Below are positions 301-9,309 of a stretch of 16,324 bases of DNA, piece by piece. Position 1 is the stretch's first letter. Every line of letters starts with the position of its first letter. This stretch comes from Eubacteriales bacterium (GTDB lineage Bacteria; Bacillota; Clostridia; Peptostreptococcales; Acidaminobacteraceae). The DNA lies in contig DAOURC010000006.1 of the NCBI GenBank assembly GCA_030625285.1, positions 1 to 16,324 on the forward strand, written 5' to 3'. A program made the position numbers and the translations under genes. A model generated the notes under the pieces. The model was not told the DNA's origin. It worked only from the letters and a program-made list of their open reading frames with translations, and ran no database searches.

Positions 301-337
301 AAAAGAGTTATGTCATTGTAGTTGACATAACTCTTTT
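301..337. terminator. Long A/T-flanked hairpin after the ferredoxin
   Basis: A perfect 15-bp inverted repeat, AAAAGAGTTATGTCA (301-315) and TGACATAACTCTTTT (323-337), encloses a 7-base loop. The A-tract and T-tract form the outer stem, so it looks like an intrinsic terminator, possibly working in both directions. Its core and loop closely match a second hairpin at 8847-8875. Confidence 0.8.
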
Positions 338-674: not shown

Positions 675-1871
675 GTGAATAATCGTAAGGCTGTATTTGG
701 CATAATCGAAAGTGTGTTGTTAACATTAATTGTGTGTTTTATTTTCTTTTACATTAATCCTATAAGAGAGAACTTCTTATTCATGAATATTCAGCCGCTG
801 TTGATAGTCGTGGTTGCAATTTCTTTAAGATATGGAAATTATATAGGCATGTTTAGTGCTTTACTTGCGATACTTGCATATATGTATGCTTATCATTCAG
901 TAGGAAGAGATTTATATTTGTTTGCAATTGATTTCTCTTACTATAAATTTTTACTGATGTTTTTTCTAAGTGCAGTAATTTTTGGGCGATTTAAAGATGA
1001 TTATGATTTTAAAGCTAATAACAAAAAATTAGAGTATGATAATTTATTAGCTTCTTACGATGAACTTCATGATGGGTATGAAAAATTAAAATTCATTAAA
1101 GAAGAACTTGCAAAAAGAGTCGTTGGTGCAGAATATAGTATAGTGTCATTGTATGAAATTGCATCAAGCTTAGAGACTCATAATTCAGAAGAAATTTATA
1201 CTGAAGTCATTAATTTGCTTAATAAGTATATTAAGGCCACTGAGATTTCAATTTACACAGTTGACAAAAGTGGTAAGTACTTAAGGCTAAAAATACAGCA
1301 TGGACATGATGAATTAATTCCTACATCCATTGAAGTTGAAAATTTAGAGTGCTATCAAAGAATAATTAAAACGTTAAAACCTGCGAAAATAATTGATGAA
1401 GAGGGATGTCCTTTATTAGTTGGACCAATCATTAGAAATGGAAAGGTTATTGCCGTGGTTAATATCGATGCTTTAGAATTTGAAATGGTAACAGATTATT
1501 CATTCAATATCTTTAAAGTTATAGTTGATTGGGTTACAAAGGCGTTAATCCAAGCTTATGAAGTCGAAGAAATGAAAAAAGATAGAAATTATTTTAAAAA
1601 TACTAAAATAATGAAATATGAGAACTTCTTGAATAGATTACAAGAAGAAAAAGATAGAAAAGAAAAATTTGGATTAGAGTATAGCGTGCTTGAATATGAT
1701 GTTGCCAATCTAACAGTTGATGAAATTGATGAGAGGTTAAAAAACGAATTAAGAGAAGTGGATGTAGTTGGAATTGATGAAGAGAGAGGTAGATTACACA
1801 TTTTGCTACCTGCTACAAGTGGTAAGTATTACAATATCGTGGATGAAAGAATTAAGAAAATATTTGATTAA
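675..1871 (+). CDS. pelD: PelD-like membrane c-di-GMP receptor (GAF plus degenerate GGDEF)
   Basis: Inner-membrane regulatory subunit expected to activate Pel polymer synthesis when c-di-GMP binds. The 398-residue protein has four predicted membrane helices (about 5-27, 36-51, 55-75, 88-104), a charged, probably coiled-coil linker (112-150), a GAF-type domain (about 151-295) and a short C-terminal GGDEF-like domain (308-398). In that domain the inhibitory-site motif RxxD is intact as R360-E-V-D363. The segment that should carry GGDEF reads roughly EERGR (369-373), so diguanylate cyclase activity is not expected. R392 or a nearby lysine might serve as the second c-di-GMP-binding basic residue. 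The start is GTG with AGGAGG at 662-667, seven bases upstream. This is the architecture of Pseudomonas and Bacillus cereus PelD. As first gene of the six-gene run it fits a Pel operon. The call rests on architecture and context, since the primary sequence of this family is poorly conserved. Confidence 0.85.
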   Translation: MNNRKAVFGIIESVLLTLIVCFIFFYINPIRENFLFMNIQPLLIVVVAISLRYGNYIGMFSALLAILAYMYAYHSVGRDLYLFAIDFSYYKFLLMFFLSAVIFGRFKDDYDFKANNKKLEYDNLLASYDELHDGYEKLKFIKEELAKRVVGAEYSIVSLYEIASSLETHNSEEIYTEVINLLNKYIKATEISIYTVDKSGKYLRLKIQHGHDELIPTSIEVENLECYQRIIKTLKPAKIIDEEGCPLLVGPIIRNGKVIAVVNIDALEFEMVTDYSFNIFKVIVDWVTKALIQAYEVEEMKKDRNYFKNTKIMKYENFLNRLQEEKDRKEKFGLEYSVLEYDVANLTVDEIDERLKNELREVDVVGIDEERGRLHILLPATSGKYYNIVDERIKKIFD

Positions 1872-1885
1872 ATGGAGATGGATTT

Positions 1886-3715
1886 ATGAATGTTAAACCA
1901 AAAGTAGTCATCATCCTTATCATAGTAATGATTACCGCTTTATCGGTGCAATTGTTTCGAGGAGGGGTAGTTTTAAAATTTTTCTCTGTGGATCAAGTGA
2001 TTGATAGTGATTTAAAAACAAGTGAATCCTCTGTTGTCCCTGATAATTATAAAAAGATTTTGGTTTTAAATTCAAAAGAGGATTTAGGCTCAGTTTTTAT
2101 ATATGAAAATCTTGAGCGTGTTCTCACTATGACAAAACAAAATTTCAATTGCTTATCCATTGATTCAGATGAAGTGGAGCAGACAGTTAAAGAGTTGGAT
2201 GGCGATGATTTACTCGTTATCGCTACAGAGAACATTGACAAATTAAAAGAGCCTTCAATTATTAAGGATTACATAGAAAATGGTGGAAAAGTTGCATTTT
2301 TAATTAGAAGTCTATATAAGGATTTTGATGAAATTGTAGGGATTAAAGAAAATAACGGCTTTTTAGAAAATGATATTTATGGTATAGAATTCAATAAAAG
2401 GTTTTTTCCGAGTTTGGATGAATTGAAAATCACATCGCAAAAAATACCACATTCAATATTGGATGTGAAAATATCAGATGATACTGAAGTGGTTGCTTCT
2501 ACTGCAGGAGTTCCACTTATTTGGACTCATAAGTACGGATCTGGAAAAGTGATATATGTAAACTCTACAATGCTCATGGATAAGGGGAATCGTGGAGTAT
2601 TAATCAATACATTAAGTTATATTGATGATTATTTTGTGTCTACAGTTTTCAATGGAAAAATTGTAGACATTGATGATTTTCCTGCTCCTATTAAGCGAGG
2701 GAAAGATGAGACTATTTTTGAACAGTATCATATGACTAATCGAAGTTTCTATAGATTGATCTGGTGGTCTTCAATGAATAATCTGGCTTCAAGATATGAT
2801 TTGAAATACACTGGTTTAATTATTGGAACTTATAATTTGGAAACAGTATCACCCTTACCGGAGTTCAACAACTTCGCGATTGATGATCTAGAGTATTTTG
2901 GTAGAAAGTTGTTTGAATCAAGAGGAGAGCTTGGGATTCATGGATATAATCATAATTCTTTAGCACTAGAGGAAGAAATGAACTTCGATAAATATGGTTA
3001 CAATCCTTGGGAATCTACTGAAACAATGGAAGAGGGACTTACTTTAGTAAAAGATTTTATTGATAAATATTATGGCGATATCAAGATATATACATATGTA
3101 GCTCCTTCTAACGTGATATCGAAAGCAGGAAAGATTGCAGTGAAAAATATATTTCCAGATTTGTTGGTTTATGCTGGGATTTATACTGGAAATGATGAAG
3201 AAAGTCTATTGCTTCAAGAATTCGGGAAGGATAAAGATGTTTCTGGAACATATGATTTCCCGAGATTATCCGCAGGTTACTTATATTCAGATGGATTAAT
3301 GTGGGATATTTATAATGGAATAGCTCATTACGGTATCGTGAATCACTTTATTCATCCTGATGATTTGTTAGATCCTGAAAGATCTCAAGGAACTAAGTGG
3401 AAAGATCTTGACAAAAACATTAATCGGATATTCTCAAGCATACATAATAATTTTTCGTTTTTAAGAGACATGACCAATAAAGAAGCGATTGACGAATTCA
3501 TAAGTCAAGAGAATCTTAAAGTTTATGTTAACAAGGAAGAAAATGTGATTAATATATTCTACGAAAATTTTGTCAATCCAGTGTATCATTATCTTTATAT
3601 GAAGGATGAAAAGATAAAATTTGTTGAGGGTGGAGAATTTATTCTTATTGATGAAGAACTTGGGTTATACCTTATTGAAGGAAATGAAATGAGTATTAAA
3701 ATTCTATTAAAATAG
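1886..3715 (+). CDS. pelA: PelA-like polysaccharide deacetylase (Rossmann-like plus deacetylase domains, no hydrolase)
   Basis: Membrane-anchored or secreted enzyme expected to remove acetyl groups from the GalNAc-rich Pel polymer outside the cell. The 609 residues comprise an N-terminal signal anchor (about 7-30), a Rossmann/glutamine-amidotransferase-like region (about 50-250), a metal-dependent deacetylase-type barrel (about 255-510) and a beta-rich C-terminus. Catalytic and metal-binding candidates are D261 and D263 in the VDIDDFP motif and H352/H356 in HGYNH. This DxD plus HxxxH pattern is the one used by P. aeruginosa PelA. Segments YVAPSN and NHFIHPDD resemble later active-site motifs. 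Unlike Pseudomonas PelA it has no N-terminal GH114 hydrolase domain, which is encoded separately at the end of the operon. The start ATG has GGAG eight bases upstream and lies 14 bases after pelD. B. cereus also has a deacetylase-only form. The enzyme class is fairly sure and the exact substrate is inferred from context. Confidence 0.83.
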   Translation: MNVKPKVVIILIIVMITALSVQLFRGGVVLKFFSVDQVIDSDLKTSESSVVPDNYKKILVLNSKEDLGSVFIYENLERVLTMTKQNFNCLSIDSDEVEQTVKELDGDDLLVIATENIDKLKEPSIIKDYIENGGKVAFLIRSLYKDFDEIVGIKENNGFLENDIYGIEFNKRFFPSLDELKITSQKIPHSILDVKISDDTEVVASTAGVPLIWTHKYGSGKVIYVNSTMLMDKGNRGVLINTLSYIDDYFVSTVFNGKIVDIDDFPAPIKRGKDETIFEQYHMTNRSFYRLIWWSSMNNLASRYDLKYTGLIIGTYNLETVSPLPEFNNFAIDDLEYFGRKLFESRGELGIHGYNHNSLALEEEMNFDKYGYNPWESTETMEEGLTLVKDFIDKYYGDIKIYTYVAPSNVISKAGKIAVKNIFPDLLVYAGIYTGNDEESLLLQEFGKDKDVSGTYDFPRLSAGYLYSDGLMWDIYNGIAHYGIVNHFIHPDDLLDPERSQGTKWKDLDKNINRIFSSIHNNFSFLRDMTNKEAIDEFISQENLKVYVNKEENVINIFYENFVNPVYHYLYMKDEKIKFVEGGEFILIDEELGLYLIEGNEMSIKILLK

Positions 3716-3721
3716 GTGATC
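3714..3721 (+). promoter_or_regulatory. Ribosome binding site that decides the pelE start
   Basis: AGGTGATC is an eight-base perfect match to the 16S anti-Shine-Dalgarno tail and overlaps the pelA stop codon. It places the pelE start at GTG 3725 (eight bases after AGG) rather than at the GTG at 3716, which lies inside this site and has no binding site of its own. Confidence 0.7.
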
Positions 3722-3724
3722 AGT

Positions 3725-4705
3725 GTGTTGGTTTTTTTTATTATACTTTTATTTGTTGGAAGTATTATTGATTTACAATTGTTTTTAATTTCAGTTCAAA
3801 GTGGAAAACTTAATATTGTAATGTATGTGATAATTCATTTGTTTTTATCTTTGTGTATCTATATCTTTTATAGATTTGAAGTAAAGAAAAAGATTGAAAT
3901 GCCATTATATTTCATGATTTTTATTCCTATCTTCGGTTTTGTTTTTACAACAATATTCTATCTAGCTCTTTTGGTTTTTAATCGTAAAGGAAATTTGGTA
4001 GAAGATTATGAAACTTATATCAATTATGTTAGTGATTTTATTGTTGAAAAAGATATTGATTTTCATAAAGAAATAAATACAACAACAGCGTTAGATTACT
4101 TACTTATTGGTGATGATGAGCAAAAGAAAAGTGTAATAATCGACTTGGTAAATGAAAATATGGATATTAAAATCGATATTCTAAAAAAGGCACTGAAAGA
4201 TAATAATTCAGAAGTAGTACATTATGCATCTTCAACATTGAATCTTATCGAGAATGAATACGAAAAAAGCTTAGATCATTTAAAAAATAAATATAAGAAC
4301 GAAAAGGGCAGAGTAGTTTTACAGGAACTAATAGATGTATATGGAAAATATATTTATTCAGGATTGAATGAGAATTTCTTGAGGAACATATATTTGGAAG
4401 AATATATTGAAATGATTGATACATATATTGATGAATATGGATATATCGCTGATATTCTTATAAAGAAAGTGAATGCTCTACTAGTTCTTAAAAAATATGA
4501 TAGGGCATTGGATGTGTTGAACATTATGGATGAAAAATTTCCACATAACTTTGATAGATGCATTCTCAGGATGAGATTGTTTTATTATTTAAAAGATTAT
4601 AACGAAATTCGAATAGTGATAAATAAGATGGAAAAAATGCATTATGAAATTCCAATGAAATATAAGCAAATAGTAGATTTTTGGGATGCAAAGGAGAATA
4701 ATTGA
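3725..4705 (+). CDS. pelE: PelE-like membrane protein with helical-repeat cytoplasmic domain
   Basis: Scaffold subunit expected to hold the cytoplasmic polymerase PelF to the PelD/PelG membrane complex. With the GTG start at 3725 it has 326 residues, close to the 329 of Pseudomonas PelE. There are about three hydrophobic helices in the first 85 residues, followed by a wholly helical charged region. Around 120-190 the pattern looks HEAT-like, and from about 230 to the end there are TPR-like helix pairs. No catalytic motif is visible. A GTG at 3716 directly after the pelA stop would add three residues but lacks a binding site. The TGA stop overlaps the pelF ATG by one base (TGATG), implying coupled translation. 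Sequence identity alone would not name this protein. The call rests on length, topology, repeat type and position between pelA and pelF. Confidence 0.72.
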   Translation: MLVFFIILLFVGSIIDLQLFLISVQSGKLNIVMYVIIHLFLSLCIYIFYRFEVKKKIEMPLYFMIFIPIFGFVFTTIFYLALLVFNRKGNLVEDYETYINYVSDFIVEKDIDFHKEINTTTALDYLLIGDDEQKKSVIIDLVNENMDIKIDILKKALKDNNSEVVHYASSTLNLIENEYEKSLDHLKNKYKNEKGRVVLQELIDVYGKYIYSGLNENFLRNIYLEEYIEMIDTYIDEYGYIADILIKKVNALLVLKKYDRALDVLNIMDEKFPHNFDRCILRMRLFYYLKDYNEIRIVINKMEKMHYEIPMKYKQIVDFWDAKENN

Positions 4706-6123
4706 TGAAAATTTGTATGTTTGTTGAAGGATCATATCCCTATGTACAAGGTGGAGTTTCTTCATGGGTGCATCAGTTGACAACTGAATTAAGTGAACAT
4801 GATTTCACGATTATTTCTATTATGCCTTCAAGAGATGATATTAGTGAGGTTAAATATGACTTACCTAAAAATATCAAATCACTGAGGACTATTTATTTAA
4901 ATGATTACCTTGACAACAATCCGTTAAAAGGATCGAAGGAGCCAAGTTTTAATGATCTTGAGAGAGAGCAGATTATTAAGTTTTTTAGATTTGAAAGCGA
5001 TGTAATGTGGGATGTGGTTTTAAAAGGACTTTCAAACATCAAAAAGACAGGTGATTCTGTACAGTTTTTTAAAAGTGAATTTTTTTGGAATGCCATTTTA
5101 GACTACTACAATGATAACTATAGAAAAGAAGAATTCAACCTCTTTTTTTGGACATTGAGATCTATGTTTATACCTCTTTTTAGCATTATTCAAAGTGAAA
5201 TGGAGGAAGCAGATGTTTTTCATACAGTTTCAACAGGGTATGCTGGAATACTTGGACTTATTGCAAAATTTACATACAACAAACCCCTTGTTTTAACCGA
5301 ACATGGTATTTATGCCAGGGAGAGGGAAGAAGAGATAATTCAAGCAAAGTGGGTTACTGGAATTTATAAAAAGTTTTGGATTGAATTGTTTTATTATCTT
5401 TCCGAAGCTGTATATAAAAATGCCGATCTTGTAGTTTCTCTCTTTGATGGAAATAGACAGATACAATTAGAACTAGGTTCAAGAGAGGATAACACTATAG
5501 TTGTTCCAAATGGAGTCGATTTAAAGGGATTCAATATAGAGCATTTGAAAACTGGAGATTTTAATATAGGTGCGATACTTAGAGTAGTACCAATTAAGGA
5601 TGTTAAAACGTTAATTAGAGCTTTTAAACTAGTGAAGAGTAATGTGGAAGAAGCGAAGCTTTATATCATAGGTCCTACAGAAGAAGATGAAGATTATTAT
5701 ACTGAGTGTTTAAGACTTGTTGATAATATGGGGATTAATGATGATGTTGTTTTTACTGATAAAGCTGATGTGAAAAAGTATTTGAAAATTATGGATGTGT
5801 TGGTTTTGACTTCTATTTCTGAAGGTCAGCCTTTAGTTATTTTAGAGGGAATGGCATCAGAAGTGCCTTTTGTTTCTACAGATGTAGGTGGTTGCAGAGA
5901 ATTGCTTCTAGGAAGAGAAAATGAATCTATTGGACCATCTGGTATCATTACTACTCCAGTAATGCCATATGAGACATTTGAAGCTATATATACTTTATAT
6001 AAAGATAGTGAACTAAGAGAACAAATGAGTACAAATGGTAGAAAACGCGTTGAGACTTATTATTCAAAGGAACAATTTATTAAAAAATACAGACAAATTT
6101 ACGATGAAATCGGGAGAAAATAA
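4705..6123 (+). CDS. pelF: PelF glycosyltransferase (GT4, Pel polymerase)
   Basis: Cytoplasmic GT-B glycosyltransferase that in Pseudomonas uses UDP-GalNAc to extend the Pel chain. It is 472 residues long from ATG 4705. The N-terminal segment EGSYPYVQGGVSSWVHQL (8-25) is the hallmark of the PelF/DUF3492 family. The C-terminal Rossmann half carries R293 and K298, the usual nucleotide-sugar phosphate contacts, and an EX7E motif with E373 and E381 followed by GMASE and DVGG. The start is set by AAGGAG (4691-4696), eight bases upstream. A TTG one codon earlier (4702) is less likely. It overlaps the previous stop by one base and its own TAA directly abuts the next ATG, so translation of pelE, pelF and pelG is probably tightly coupled. 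This is the most recognisable gene of the operon and anchors the Pel assignment. Confidence 0.93.
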   Translation: MKICMFVEGSYPYVQGGVSSWVHQLTTELSEHDFTIISIMPSRDDISEVKYDLPKNIKSLRTIYLNDYLDNNPLKGSKEPSFNDLEREQIIKFFRFESDVMWDVVLKGLSNIKKTGDSVQFFKSEFFWNAILDYYNDNYRKEEFNLFFWTLRSMFIPLFSIIQSEMEEADVFHTVSTGYAGILGLIAKFTYNKPLVLTEHGIYAREREEEIIQAKWVTGIYKKFWIELFYYLSEAVYKNADLVVSLFDGNRQIQLELGSREDNTIVVPNGVDLKGFNIEHLKTGDFNIGAILRVVPIKDVKTLIRAFKLVKSNVEEAKLYIIGPTEEDEDYYTECLRLVDNMGINDDVVFTDKADVKKYLKIMDVLVLTSISEGQPLVILEGMASEVPFVSTDVGGCRELLLGRENESIGPSGIITTPVMPYETFEAIYTLYKDSELREQMSTNGRKRVETYYSKEQFIKKYRQIYDEIGRK

Positions 6124-7581
6124 ATGGCTGGAATCGGGTTTACTTTAAAAACATTATTTGAAGAAGAATATTATTTATCTAGAACAAAAGCGTATATATA
6201 TTCAGCTTTGGTTTCGGCAGGTCCCTGGATAGCGGCAGTTGTTACAGTAAATCTCCTTATCCTCTTATCTGATTATTACTTTGATGATATTTCACAAAGG
6301 GATTTATTTATGGGTACCATTGTATATAGTTTTGTGTTTTCTCAGATAATTACAGCTCCATGGCAACTCTTGATTACAAGGTATATTTCAGATAATTTGT
6401 TTTCTAAAACATATCATAATATCAGGGCTTCGTTCTTCGGACTAGGTCGTATTATTTTTATCAGTTCATACATAATCGGGTTAATTTACTATTATGATAA
6501 AGAATTACCGCTTATATACAAAACAATGGCGCTTGCATTATTCGTTTTTCTATCTCTACTATGGATATTGATGGTATATCTAAGCGCCATAAAAAACTAT
6601 TCGTTAATAGCGTATAGCTTTGTTGTCGGGGGAGTAATTTCTGTAATTTTAACTTGTGTTTGGATAAAATATCCACTTCCTTTTGCTGAGTTTAATCATT
6701 CGAGTAATGTACTGCTTGCATATTTAATAGGGATAATAACTACATTTGGCATGTTGCTTTATGGTTTCTTAACCAATTTTTATCTTGGAAATAATAAACA
6801 ATATGATTTTTTAAGATATATTGATCGGTATAAGGCGTTGATGTTCATTGGAGTGTTTTATACGCTAGGGCTTTGGATAGATGATATTATTATGTGGTAT
6901 TCACCTTTGAGTGTGGATATTCATGCAACATACAAATACGCTCCATTATACGATAATGCGATGTTTTTAGCATATTTAACCATAATACCTACAATGATAT
7001 TATTCATGGTATCTGTTGAGACTGAATTTTATGATTTATATAAGAAGTATTATAATTTAGCAGTTAAAAAGGGGACTTTCAAAGAACTGGAAATCGCAAG
7101 GATAGAAATGAAAAAATCGATTAATAGGCAATTACTGCATACGCTTGAAATTCAATCAATTATAACTTTAACACTAATTATTCTTTCGGGGAGAATTTTT
7201 TCGTATTTGGGTATACCGCTTATTGTTAGGGATATATATAGGATTGCTTCTTTAGGTGCACTTTGTAATATTTTTATTTTGTTAATAATTTTGATACTTC
7301 TTTATTTTGAAGGGATAAATTATGCATTGATCATTTCCGGTAGTTTCTTGATATCAAATGCGGTTTTAACAACTTACTTTCTACCAATGGGTATTGATTA
7401 TTACGGTGTGGGATACTTTATGGGTTCATTCGGTACTTTGCTATTGGCTCTGTTGATGCTTGTGAAATTTTTAGATAAAATTCATTATCATACATTTGGA
7501 TTACAGCCGTTATTTGCACCAAAAGATGAAGGACTTTTCTTTAATCTATCTAATGAGATTCACCGTATATTCTTTAAGTGA
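6124..7581 (+). CDS. pelG: PelG polytopic membrane transporter (MOP-flippase-like)
   Basis: Integral membrane protein thought to move the growing Pel polymer across the cytoplasmic membrane together with PelD, PelE and PelF. It has 485 residues and about twelve hydrophobic helices covering nearly the whole length, with one large charged loop in the middle (DNA about 7020-7140). The N-terminal segment MAGIGFTLKTLF and the SAGPW motif near residue 32 are typical of PelG, a polysaccharide-transporter relative in the MOP superfamily. The ATG follows the pelF stop with no gap, and GGGAGA in the end of pelF (6112-6117) serves as ribosome binding site. The pairing of PelF with PelG is specific for Pel systems, which rules out a generic Wzx flippase. 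Confidence 0.9.
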   Translation: MAGIGFTLKTLFEEEYYLSRTKAYIYSALVSAGPWIAAVVTVNLLILLSDYYFDDISQRDLFMGTIVYSFVFSQIITAPWQLLITRYISDNLFSKTYHNIRASFFGLGRIIFISSYIIGLIYYYDKELPLIYKTMALALFVFLSLLWILMVYLSAIKNYSLIAYSFVVGGVISVILTCVWIKYPLPFAEFNHSSNVLLAYLIGIITTFGMLLYGFLTNFYLGNNKQYDFLRYIDRYKALMFIGVFYTLGLWIDDIIMWYSPLSVDIHATYKYAPLYDNAMFLAYLTIIPTMILFMVSVETEFYDLYKKYYNLAVKKGTFKELEIARIEMKKSINRQLLHTLEIQSIITLTLIILSGRIFSYLGIPLIVRDIYRIASLGALCNIFILLIILILLYFEGINYALIISGSFLISNAVLTTYFLPMGIDYYGVGYFMGSFGTLLLALLMLVKFLDKIHYHTFGLQPLFAPKDEGLFFNLSNEIHRIFFK

Positions 7582-7598
7582 TAAAGAAGGGATAAAAA

Positions 7599-8441
7599 AT
7601 GAAGATAAGTACAATATCTATAGTTTTGTTAATAGGAGTACTATTAAGCATTCCTGTTTTTTCGCAGTCTACAATTAGACCGTTTTATGAAGCGATGCTG
7701 GATAGAGGGAAGATTCAAGCAATTAAAGATTTTATAATCTACTATGGAAATCTAGATGTAAAAACGATTGAAAAATTATCTAAATATGATGTAGTAATTA
7801 TTGAACCTAGAAGCGCTGGCAAAAATCAAATTTTATCATTAAAAGAAAAAGGAACAAAGGTATATGGATATTTATCTGTAGTTGAACAAAATGAGAATAA
7901 TTTGGAATTCGTTTCATTAAAAGATGATTGGTTTTATAAAGTTAATGGAGATACAGTAAGAAACGATCAATGGGAATCTTGGTATATGGACTTATCGGTC
8001 GATGGATATAGACGTTTTTTAATAGAGCAAATTTATCTACATGTCGTAGATAAAAATCTTGATGGCGTTTTTATTGATACAGTAGGCGATATTGAAGAAT
8101 TTTCATTTTTGGAGAATGAAAAAGTAGCCATGACAAATGGATATGTAGATTTATTAAAAGATATAAAAATCAACTATGAAGATGTTTCGATTATTCAAAA
8201 CTGGGGATTTAATATTGCAAAAGAATATTCAAAGGATTATATTGACGGAATTATGTGGGAAGGATTTAACCTTAGTCTTCTAAAAGAAGATAAGTGGTCT
8301 AAAAATAGATTTGAAGAAATCAAAGAGATGAATATTGATTTCTATATGGTATCTCCAATAAAAGAACCTGTTGATAAAGTGGTTTTTAATAAAGATGTAT
8401 ATAGATATTATAGAAATATAGATATTTATGATGAATATTAA
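7599..8441 (+). CDS. Secreted GH114 glycoside hydrolase, PelA hydrolase-domain type
   Basis: Exported enzyme resembling endo-alpha-1,4-polygalactosaminidases (GH114), the family of the N-terminal hydrolase domain of Pseudomonas PelA. It would cut Pel polymer during synthesis, release or dispersal. Of 280 residues, the first 24 form a signal peptide ending near VFSQS. The rest follows the TIM-barrel pattern: YYG (48-50), VVIIEP (65-70), VYGYLSVVE (88-96), a WYMDLS strand (128-133), DGVFIDT (155-161), IIQNW (198-202) and DGIMWEGF (216-223). D160 and E221 are the likely catalytic acids, by position matching D160 and E218 of P. aeruginosa PelA. AGAAGG lies eight bases before the ATG and the gap from pelG is 17 bases, so it belongs to the pel operon. 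No membrane or wall anchor is seen after the signal peptide. The C-terminus is rather short, but there is no clear sign of truncation. Confidence 0.82.
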   Translation: MKISTISIVLLIGVLLSIPVFSQSTIRPFYEAMLDRGKIQAIKDFIIYYGNLDVKTIEKLSKYDVVIIEPRSAGKNQILSLKEKGTKVYGYLSVVEQNENNLEFVSLKDDWFYKVNGDTVRNDQWESWYMDLSVDGYRRFLIEQIYLHVVDKNLDGVFIDTVGDIEEFSFLENEKVAMTNGYVDLLKDIKINYEDVSIIQNWGFNIAKEYSKDYIDGIMWEGFNLSLLKEDKWSKNRFEEIKEMNIDFYMVSPIKEPVDKVVFNKDVYRYYRNIDIYDEY

Positions 8442-8579
8442 GTATAATCGGAAAAATTCTTTGGTTACGAAGAGCTGTTTTGTTTGTGTTAAACATAGAT
8501 AAAACTGTATACTATTTGAATATAATAGCATCGTATGATCGATATTTTTTTGAAGTCTTCTGCACTTCGTATCTCTCGT
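8442..8579. other. Gene-free spacer after the pel operon
   Basis: AT-rich sequence with no supported gene. A weak four-base stem ATCG (8530-8533)/CGAT (8540-8543) is followed by seven T (8545-8551) and might end some pel transcripts. The stretch probably includes decayed transposon DNA next to the transposase remnant, but I could not align it to anything. Confidence 0.4.
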
Positions 8580-8750
8580 TCTATATTTCTCTTTTCCAAC
8601 TAAAGAGTATAATTCTTTCGCTAAATCATAAATAAAATCAAAGATAAAAGCTTTCTCAATTTTTCTTAACAGCTGGTTTTTTTCTACCATATCATCTAAT
8701 GAGATAAATGCAATTTGTTCGCTATCTTCTACTGATTTTTTGCCCATCAT
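8580..8750 (-). pseudogene. N-terminal remnant of an IS1182-type transposase
   Basis: On the reverse strand a start (ATG ATG, 8745-8750) with a strong GGGAGGAG binding site leads into about 55 residues. The segment QIAFISLDDMVEKNQLLRKI, followed by FIYDLAKELYS, is the typical beginning of IS1182-family DDE transposases. After that point the expected continuation (a GRPS segment and the first catalytic aspartate region) is missing. The frame runs on as low-complexity residues into the complement of the hydrolase gene, so this is a broken copy lacking the whole catalytic core. The intact binding site and start suggest the decay is not ancient. The family name is from memory of the N-terminal motif and is fairly secure. 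The breakpoint near 8580-8600 is approximate. Confidence 0.7.
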
Positions 8751-8808
8751 AGATACTCCTCCCTTAATATATATAATTCGACAAGAGTTCTTAAAAATTT
8801 TCGAGCAA

Positions 8809-8834: not shown

Positions 8835-8846
8835 GTTTACAGTCTG

Positions 8847-8882
8847 GAGTTATGTCGTTGTATTCGACATAACTCTTTTTTT
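8847..8882 (+). terminator. Intrinsic terminator, near-copy of the hairpin at 301-337
   Basis: Stem GAGTTATGTCG (8847-8857) and CGACATAACTC (8865-8875), loop TTGTATT, then seven T (8876-8882). The T-run makes it a plus-strand terminator, so it would end transcription coming from the pel operon across the transposon scar. The last T residues overlap the stop codon of the reverse-strand gene. Stem and loop are nearly identical to the hairpin at 301-337. Confidence 0.8.
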
Positions 8883-9309
8883 ATTCTGGGAATAGTGTGA
8901 AAGCCAATATTATCAGTATGATAAAAAGAAAAGTTCCTGAATAGAACAAGGGCTTTGTTAGAGAATATTTAAAATCTTTATACAAATAATTATCTTTTAA
9001 ATAGTTATCAATATTTTTTTCATCGTCGATTGAATGCTCGCTCATTAAACTAAACCGATAATTCTTCGATAAAACGACTCTAAAGTGTTTTATTGAATAA
9101 AGGTACAAATTAAACATTTTTTGTTCTGTTATAAACATAAAAGAACCGACTATAAATACAATCGTTGTCAATATCGATAGAATATTATAGTAAGCAAAGA
9201 AAAATGGTGTATTGAAGCCAGTGAAAATTTTACCGATCATAACAATAATAAAACTGATAAAAAGAATTAATAATGAAGGAATAATTAAGTTTTTTGTAAG
9301 ATTTTTCAT
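8881..9309 (-). CDS. Small three-helix membrane protein, possibly DUF3899
   Basis: A 142-residue hypothetical membrane protein. Two hydrophobic helices sit near the N-terminus (about 9-27 and 36-62). A charged central cytoplasmic-type stretch (about 66-115) follows and a third helix closes the protein (about 122-139). The layout resembles DUF3899 membrane proteins, but I cannot confirm this and no function is known. The ATG has GAGG six bases upstream, and a good promoter is seen further upstream (9348-9375), so the gene looks real and transcribed alone. It faces the transposon remnant, and its stop codon overlaps the T-run of the terminator on the other strand. There is no evidence linking it to the Pel or Opp systems. 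Confidence 0.65.
   Translation of the reverse strand: MKNLTKNLIIPSLLILFISFIIVMIGKIFTGFNTPFFFAYYNILSILTTIVFIVGSFMFITEQKMFNLYLYSIKHFRVVLSKNYRFSLMSEHSIDDEKNIDNYLKDNYLYKDFKYSLTKPLFYSGTFLFIILIILAFTLFPE

Follow-up and report, generated by a model that had tools for sequence, protein, structure and literature searches.

Described pel exopolysaccharide loci of Gram-positive bacteria share the synteny pelDEADAFG (PMC7112168). We analyzed a stretch of DNA from an Eubacteriales bacterium (the window: the whole of contig DAOURC010000006.1, here C187, 16,324 bases, from a 62.8% complete draft genome whose 201 contigs total 1.06 Mb) in which six pel genes run pelD-pelADA-pelE-pelF-pelG-pelAH, with the deacetylase gene second and a hydrolase gene last. 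The locus raises the question of whether it encodes a Pel system at all, and whether its arrangement belongs to one genome or to a lineage. We find that it is an architecture variant of Pel with a clade behind it, departing both from the printed Gram-positive gene order and from the printed clostridial PelD type. Placing pelADA second and pelAH last is a property of a Pel clade with short PelD proteins, not a different pathway. Gene orders are abbreviated below as D, ADA, E, F, G, and AH.

The six genes and their assignment

All six genes lie on the plus strand within positions 675-8441:

675..1871, + strand: pelD, 398 residues; membrane segments, GAF domain, and degenerate GGDEF domain with predicted I-site residues R360, D363, and R392
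1886..3715, + strand: pelADA, predicted membrane-anchored polysaccharide de-N-acetylase, DUF2194; D263, D264, H352, H356, R460, H490, and D493
3716..4705, + strand: pelE, N-terminal membrane segments, then a region with sub-threshold TPR/HEAT matches only
4702..6123, + strand: pelF, predicted GT4 glycosyltransferase/polymerase; the likelier start is the ATG at 4705
6124..7581, + strand: pelG, predicted multi-pass membrane transporter; PF16933, hydrophobic segments
7599..8441, + strand: pelAH, predicted glycoside hydrolase of the PelA type; hydrophobic, signal-like segment at the N-terminus; conserved D160 and E221

Intergenic gaps in the list of open reading frames (ORFs) are at most 17 bp, and the successive junctions from pelD to pelAH measure 14 bases, 0, a 4-base overlap, 0, and 17. 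Such a six-gene set is far beyond chance. A preliminary description had placed here six tightly packed Pel genes of a clostridial host, encoding both activities of PelA and neither PelB nor PelC. This much stands: all six ORFs were found, nearly end to end; deacetylase and hydrolase are two separate proteins; no pelB- or pelC-like gene occurs among the ORFs of the locus; and the order of the host, Peptostreptococcales (NCBI, for Peptoclostridium litorale), also includes P. litorale and Tepidibacter thalassicus.

Four of the six proteins match family models above cut-off. PelF passes the NCBIfam PelF equivalog model NF038011 (386.4 bits, cut-off 100) and, as a GT4 polymerase with DUF3492, PF11997 (278.2 bits, cut-off 23.3), and PelG passes the transporter family PF16933 (457.5 bits, cut-off 29). 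PelADA matches PF09960 (DUF2194) at 359.8 bits (E 3e-107), and PelAH matches PF14885 (GHL15) at 44.4 bits and PF03537 (GH114) at 32.2 bits, all above the Pfam cut-offs; the profile searches proposed in advance for PelF, PelG, DUF2194, and GH114 thus all passed. In trees, both PelF and PelG fall inside the Pel clades among other Pel loci, a position outside those clades having been named beforehand as grounds for giving up the identification.

The two enzymes retain their predicted active sites. PelADA matches the solved Bacillus cereus PelADA (9zau, E 2.6e-79), in which D262 is the base, H488 the acid, D263 and HxxxH the zinc site, R458 the arginine, and D491 the activating aspartate (PMC13254593). 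The window residues D263, D264, H352, H356, R460, H490, and D493 correspond to D262, D263, HxxxH, R458, H488, and D491 (P405 lies outside the comparison), and the motifs DD, HxxxH, PR, and HPDD are present in all 20 of the aligned proteins. PelAH has a match to solved PelA (E 4.1e-8), and its predicted structure (mean predicted local distance difference test score, pLDDT, 83.6, with residues 1-39 poor) finds the PelA hydrolase domain 5tcb as the best fold match (Foldseek E 6.7e-16). D160 and E221 are invariant in eight of eight near relatives, and E221 reads in the alignment as the likely equivalent of the catalytic glutamates of the TIM-barrel-like PelA-type hydrolases, E213 of B. cereus and E218 of Pseudomonas aeruginosa. 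Across 33 hydrolase-like stretches, each cut to its matched part, 11 have no letter at this glutamate column; nine of these come from Selenomonas-type loci, and the other two, of L050 and L054, match GH114.

No Pfam model scored above cut-off for PelD or PelE. A profile of nine short PelDs, searched against solved structures, gave P. aeruginosa PelD in its best five rows (E 0.0038-0.0048) and aligned an arginine, an aspartate, and a more distal arginine with residues that we take to be R367, D370, and R402. In the window PelD, the distal R392 lies 29 residues past D363, a spacing as in B. cereus PelD, whose I-site residues are R363, D366, and R395 (PMC7112168). RxxD is kept in all 11 PelDs of the D-ADA-E loci described below, and the distal arginine in 10 of the 11 (L054 has lysine). 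The PelD model (mean pLDDT 81.7, predicted template modeling score 0.50) has PelD 4etz as its best fold match (E 3.7e-8). By sequence and fold, the protein has the membrane part, GAF domain, degenerate GGDEF domain, RxxD, and distal arginine of a PelD. PelE shares 17-37% identity with ten relatives; profile iteration recovers, in Pseudomonas loci, the gene that separates pelD from pelF, and also collects other repeat proteins, such as PelB-sized ones. Pel family membership holds for every other sequence feature tested, PelE being a tentative assignment.

The genome-wide search for the missing genes covered the PelB barrel only. This Pfam family had no match in the window's draft genome (62.8% complete); as a control, Pseudomonas matched at 1.7e-102, and 14 named control genomes gave no match. 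A Pseudomonas PelC-sized protein itself matched no Pfam family. One of the control genomes, that of the outer-sheathed bacterium Thermotoga maritima, has matches to the PelF and PelG families and none to the PelB barrel.

We consider it very likely that the window holds a complete monoderm-type Pel exopolysaccharide operon, with a proposed cyclic di-GMP (c-di-GMP) switch and proposed synthesis, export, and trimming functions, and the system is probably functional and controlled by c-di-GMP. Several points weigh against this. The Pel product and its expression are predictions from the genes. A single-sequence PelD search of solved structures returned no PelD among its rows, the match of the PelD profile to solved PelD is weak (E 0.0038), the fold match to 4etz has a low whole-chain TM-score (0.28), and the predicted I-site was judged from alignment. 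PelE, identified by profile iteration and position only, is the weakest of the six assignments, and a host draft that is 62.8% complete does not allow missing partners to be judged.

Gene order across Pel loci and its descent

We compared gene order over Bacillota genomes, as the preliminary description had suggested. PelG scored above cut-off in 6 of 99 relatives and in 13 of 398 genomes sampled from the phylum, 16 of 393 from the order, and 15 of 391 from the class; all four tallies count the window's own genome and some genomes are shared between samples, leaving 39 different genomes without the window and 40 with it. In these 40, D-E-ADA-F-G is the commoner arrangement (25 genomes), yet pelADA directly after pelD recurs (9), two genomes have no nearby pelADA (G988 and G1138), and four were left unjudged (G318, G363, G379, and G1053). 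Besides the window, pelADA follows pelD in G013, G215, G234, G308 (which has no pelE), G545 (T. thalassicus), G590, G608 (P. litorale), and G631. The claim that the gene order departs from the described model is right with respect to the printed pelDEADAFG; the order is not peculiar to this genome, being usual in a clade.

A scan with a PelG alignment over one genome per species (84,980 species) gave 544 confirmed relatives, and we took the best 80 loci by likeness to the query, which are not a random sample. From 120 loci in all sets, we dropped six second copies (L169, L172, L183, L069, L058, and L080), whose D, ADA, E, F, and G are identical to those of L047, L048, L056, L033, L041, and L039, respectively. 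Also dropped were L043, L044, and L045, which are fragments or a remote match, and L053, whose frames are broken and whose order reads D-E-ADA-F-G. The remaining 110 loci comprise 11 D-ADA-E, 64 D-E-ADA, 23 D-E-F-G, and 12 unclassed loci, most of the last incomplete. In the D-E-F-G loci, pelADA is absent or elsewhere, and 19 of these 23 are Gram-negative by record title. The exact order D-ADA-E-F-G-AH is found in the window, L047 (P. litorale), L048 (T. thalassicus), L170 (G631), and L171 (G590); six further loci (L030, L034, L036, L037, L050, and L054) have pelD and pelADA adjacent, L036 being counted as D-ADA-E despite having no pelE.

Some loci depart from these classes. No pelADA stands beside D-E-F-G in L049 (1334-6710), L182, and L188, and L036 is the locus with no pelE. 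In L061 (1806-13023, Selenomonadales), a further order variant, three deacetylase-like frames, of which two overlap, come after D-E-F-G-AH. An apparent PelADA-PelF fusion in L029 was discarded, its open frame crossing a run of N in the contig, and L029 was counted as D-E-ADA-F-G.

The order goes together with PelD length. The 11 D-ADA-E loci encode PelDs of 398-453 residues. Of the 64 D-E-ADA loci, 61 encode PelDs of 515-952 residues, two encode PelDs of 409 and 432 residues, and one has an incomplete PelD. The epimerase family PF01370 gave no match in the short PelDs of the window, L036, L047, and L049, and matched the long PelD of L033 at 153.7 bits; the remaining PelDs were judged by length alone. 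In L170, a stand-alone epimerase gene (2536-3450, PF01370 216.9 bits) stops a single base short of the earliest possible pelD start. It is possibly the unfused counterpart of the epimerase-like domain that is N-terminal in the long PelD of L033.

We then asked whether the order marks descent. The PelG tree is a quick one with SH-aLRT (Shimodaira-Hasegawa-like approximate likelihood ratio test) support only, and L030 has no row in it, an insert splitting its match. Here, the window forms a starred set of six with L170, L171, L047, L048, and L034, all D-ADA-E; the next starred sets, of 10 and 13 rows, take in L029 (D-E-ADA), the pelADA-less L049, and the incomplete L052. The PelADA and PelF trees have starred sets of similar composition. 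In the PelD tree, the window sits in a starred set of four D-ADA-E rows, the next starred set having 32 rows, and this tree neither shows nor denies a D-ADA-E clade. The window stands beside the same relatives in the PelG, PelF, PelD, and PelADA trees, and L047, L048, L170, and L171 are the four rows closest to it in both the PelG and the PelADA tree. For a careful tree of PelG plus PelF, 24 loci were chosen, L030 and L052 not among them, and 23 were used after L036 dropped out. It recovers an 11-row set, made up of nine D-ADA-E loci, L029, and L049, with support 98/96.

Two other accounts of the order were weighed. Were it a one-off rearrangement or an assembly artifact, the window's being a single contig of a 201-contig draft, with a stem-loop repeat and an insertion-sequence remnant flanking the operon, would fit. 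This account is hardly credible and is refuted by recurrence: the same six genes run in the same order in the four other genomes named above, and pelD and pelADA adjoin in six more loci. Alternatively, the D-ADA-E order arose several times and is no clean mark of descent, which we regard as possible but doubtful. Strict monophyly of the order is indeed rejected (approximately unbiased test, p 6.7e-5), with L029 and L049 lying inside the clade, the PelF tree requires three order changes, and no starred branch of the PelD tree holds the clade alone. Against this, 10 of the 11 D-ADA-E loci have rows in the PelG tree and all 10 lie within one starred set of 13, and two changes suffice for the PelG, PelADA, and PelD trees, which fits one gain and one reversal. 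Because strict monophyly is rejected, the clade that we claim has one D-E-ADA and one pelADA-less member. Within it, the trees may be explained either by a single gain plus one reversal and one loss or by several gains of the order.

On this reading of a short-PelD clade, Pel gene order largely follows descent, and short-PelD operons with pelADA second lie in one clade spanning three phyla: Bacillota, Fusobacteriota, and one candidate phylum. They constitute a second clostridial type of Pel operon beside the described one. The clade also offers cultured anaerobes for work on Pel (P. litorale DSM 5388 and T. thalassicus DSM 15285), natural operons that contain the hydrolase gene, follow it, or are separate from it, and genomes with Pel genes and no PelB barrel. 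The notion of what Pel is remains unchanged.

Described Pel systems and the proposed working

The nearest described system is pelDEADAFG of B. cereus ATCC 10987, which has the same five core genes, a deacetylase-only PelA, no pelB or pelC, a PelD with GAF domain and I-site and no epimerase domain, and a separate PelA-type hydrolase nearby (PMC7112168). The window follows this Gram-positive model in its deacetylase-only PelA and in having no pelB in the locus. It differs in that pelADA lies between pelD and pelE rather than between pelE and pelF, and in that pelAH comes last in the same direction with galE on another contig, whereas B. cereus has a divergent pelAH and galE. The preliminary description had also seen a departure in content in the closing hydrolase. 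pelAH does come last, but many pel operons were already described as having a hydrolase gene inside or beside them, commonly divergent in bacilli (PMC7112168), so this part of the claim is too strong.

The described loci of clostridia, streptococci, and actinobacteria have long PelDs with an epimerase-like domain, which goes with cotH-type accessory genes (PMC7112168). The window shares the core genes with the clostridial and streptococcal loci, and the host class with the clostridial ones. Its PelD, in contrast, is short (398 residues) and has no PF01370 match where theirs carry the domain N-terminally, the gene order differs, and its PelG falls in a different part of the PelG tree. None of their cotH, polyphosphate polymerase, DUF4956, and DUF4832 genes was found among the window ORFs scanned. 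Like the window, pelABCDEFG of P. aeruginosa has PelDEFG homologues, a hydrolase and a deacetylase encoded with the synthase, and a short PelD with I-site; unlike it, the window has PelA split into two genes and neither pelB nor pelC in the locus. The deacetylases belong to different families (CE26 against CE21, as named in PMC13254593).

The four loci with an identical six-gene order (P. litorale L047, T. thalassicus L048, L170, and L171) are closer. Window PelG is 58% identical to that of L047, 57% to that of L048, and 65% to that of L170, and the flanking genes differ from those of the window. L170 differs further by the epimerase gene directly before its pelD. Among titles and abstract openings, we found no paper describing D-ADA-E-F-G; figures or supplements of PMC7112168 may draw one.

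The working proposed for the operon, which is like that of the B. cereus and P. aeruginosa systems, takes its activities, substrate, complex formation, c-di-GMP control, and single transcript by analogy from characterized relatives. c-di-GMP would bind the I-site of the degenerate GGDEF domain in PelD, and the bound PelD would activate a membrane complex of PelD, PelE, PelF, and PelG. GalE, whose gene lies outside the locus, would make uridine diphosphate N-acetylgalactosamine (UDP-GalNAc) from UDP-N-acetylglucosamine; PelF would polymerize UDP-GalNAc, and PelG would move the chain out. The membrane-anchored PelADA would strip part of the N-acetyl groups from the emerging chain, and the secreted PelAH of the same operon would trim the polymer. 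A source of UDP-GalNAc and c-di-GMP signaling are plausible because the host genome has galE above cut-off (454.7 bits, on another contig) and 11 GGDEF and 3 EAL places. No riboswitch was found before pelD, a search of the window at E up to 1 giving only a sub-threshold small RNA match on the upstream stem-loop. Control of pelD by a c-di-GMP riboswitch was likewise rejected in 15 related loci, which had none at gathering scores; the riboswitch-type elements found there were flavin mononucleotide, lysine, thiamine pyrophosphate, glycine, cobalamin, T-box, and L20 leader elements.

The cationic GalNAc-rich polymer first envisaged for this locus needs more caution. A Pel-like synthase might instead make a different or uncharged product, such as GalNAc that stays largely acetylated or another hexosamine. 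Operons that have diverged strongly may not yield a polymer of identical composition (PMC7112194), the product of some variant loci was left open (PMC7112168), and the Pel of Streptococcus intermedius has been suggested to consist chiefly of GalNAc, which would make it neutral (PMC12345266); because of this last case, polymer charge cannot be assumed from genes. Nevertheless, the catalytic residues of both deacetylase and hydrolase are intact in the window proteins, and PelADA matches a B. cereus enzyme that deacetylates alpha-1,4-GalNAc oligomers (PMC13254593). We hold a product other than cationic Pel to be quite improbable.

Flanks, distant hosts, and possible mobility

Three further features lie beside the operon:

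305..337, no strand assigned: stem-loop, upstream copy, 33 nt, terminator-like, between the ferredoxin gene and pelD
8847..8879, no strand assigned: stem-loop, downstream copy, 30/33 identical to the upstream copy, then a T run; possible operon terminator
8573..8756, - strand: remnant of an IS1182-family transposase N-terminus (NCBIfam and tblastn)

The two 33-nt stem-loop copies bracket the operon in the same orientation. The best between-flank match in 12 single-base shuffles was 24/33, and the core pattern occurs nowhere else in the draft genome, nor in 40 relatives. A T-tailed stem-loop at 8846-8876 could end the pel transcript, and the pair of copies may reflect either terminator duplication or past movement. 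The IS1182 remnant behind pelAH covers about the first 60 transposase residues; its NCBIfam match (E 0.0057) is far below cut-off, it has no Pfam match, and tblastn against plasmid IS1182 copies gave a best E of 1e-8. As to the stem-loop being an IS1182 end, one plasmid IS1182 element has a stem-loop behind, not before, its gene. Repeat and remnant beside the operon hint at mobility.

Upstream of the operon is a ferredoxin-like gene (6-284), and downstream, on the opposite strand, a DUF3899 gene (8881-9309). Beyond it are a solute-binding protein gene and two permease-like and two ATPase-like ORFs, which we read as a putative peptide transporter, and the start of the ribosomal protein S1 gene. 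Guanine-plus-cytosine content is 25.4-32.2% in the pel genes, 32.3-37.5% in the ferredoxin and transporter genes, and 24.9% in DUF3899; the pel genes are slightly poorer than most neighbors, which fits import and is no demonstration of it. A search of 41 genomes for the flanking DUF3899 gene matched only its own genome and one other (29% identity), and so gave no pel-free version of the site for comparison.

The clade extends to Propionigenium maris (Fusobacteriota, L054) and Candidatus Mcinerneyibacterium (a candidate phylum, L050), both with a hydrolase-like gene in front of the pel operon. Fusobacteria possess an outer membrane, and we assume one for Candidatus Mcinerneyibacterium. The PelB barrel family had no match in the whole genomes of P. 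maris (4.1 Mb) and Candidatus Mcinerneyibacterium (2.2 Mb), nor in those of P. litorale and T. thalassicus, and the operon-adjacent ORFs at 12723-13709 of L054 and 2449-3648 of L050 matched no Pfam family. Tentatively, and with the balance tilting against it, we suggest a distinct, horizontally moving Pel lineage, marked by a short epimerase-free PelD and the order D-ADA-E-F-G, that crossed from monoderm clostridia to outer-membrane bacteria and is present in the window as a movable unit bounded by the 33-nt repeat and the IS1182 remnant. If true, P. maris and Candidatus Mcinerneyibacterium would have a PelB-independent outer-membrane route for Pel, or a polymer that stays inside the outer membrane.

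Unusual PelG proteins were also seen. That of P. maris (L054, 10001-12730) has 909 residues, its PelG part being followed by a lipobox-like stretch and then a long Gly/Tyr/Asp-rich repeat that has no Pfam match. In L112 (10001-13111), PelG reads into a CotH-kinase domain in one open frame (PelG 438.6 bits, CotH 193.1 bits). Long PelG frames of 1029-1088 residues, known beyond L112 by length only, occur in Paenibacillus and some other Bacilli (L065, L067, L071, L075, L077, L082, L088, L089, L091, L100, L101, L102, L108, L110, and L121).

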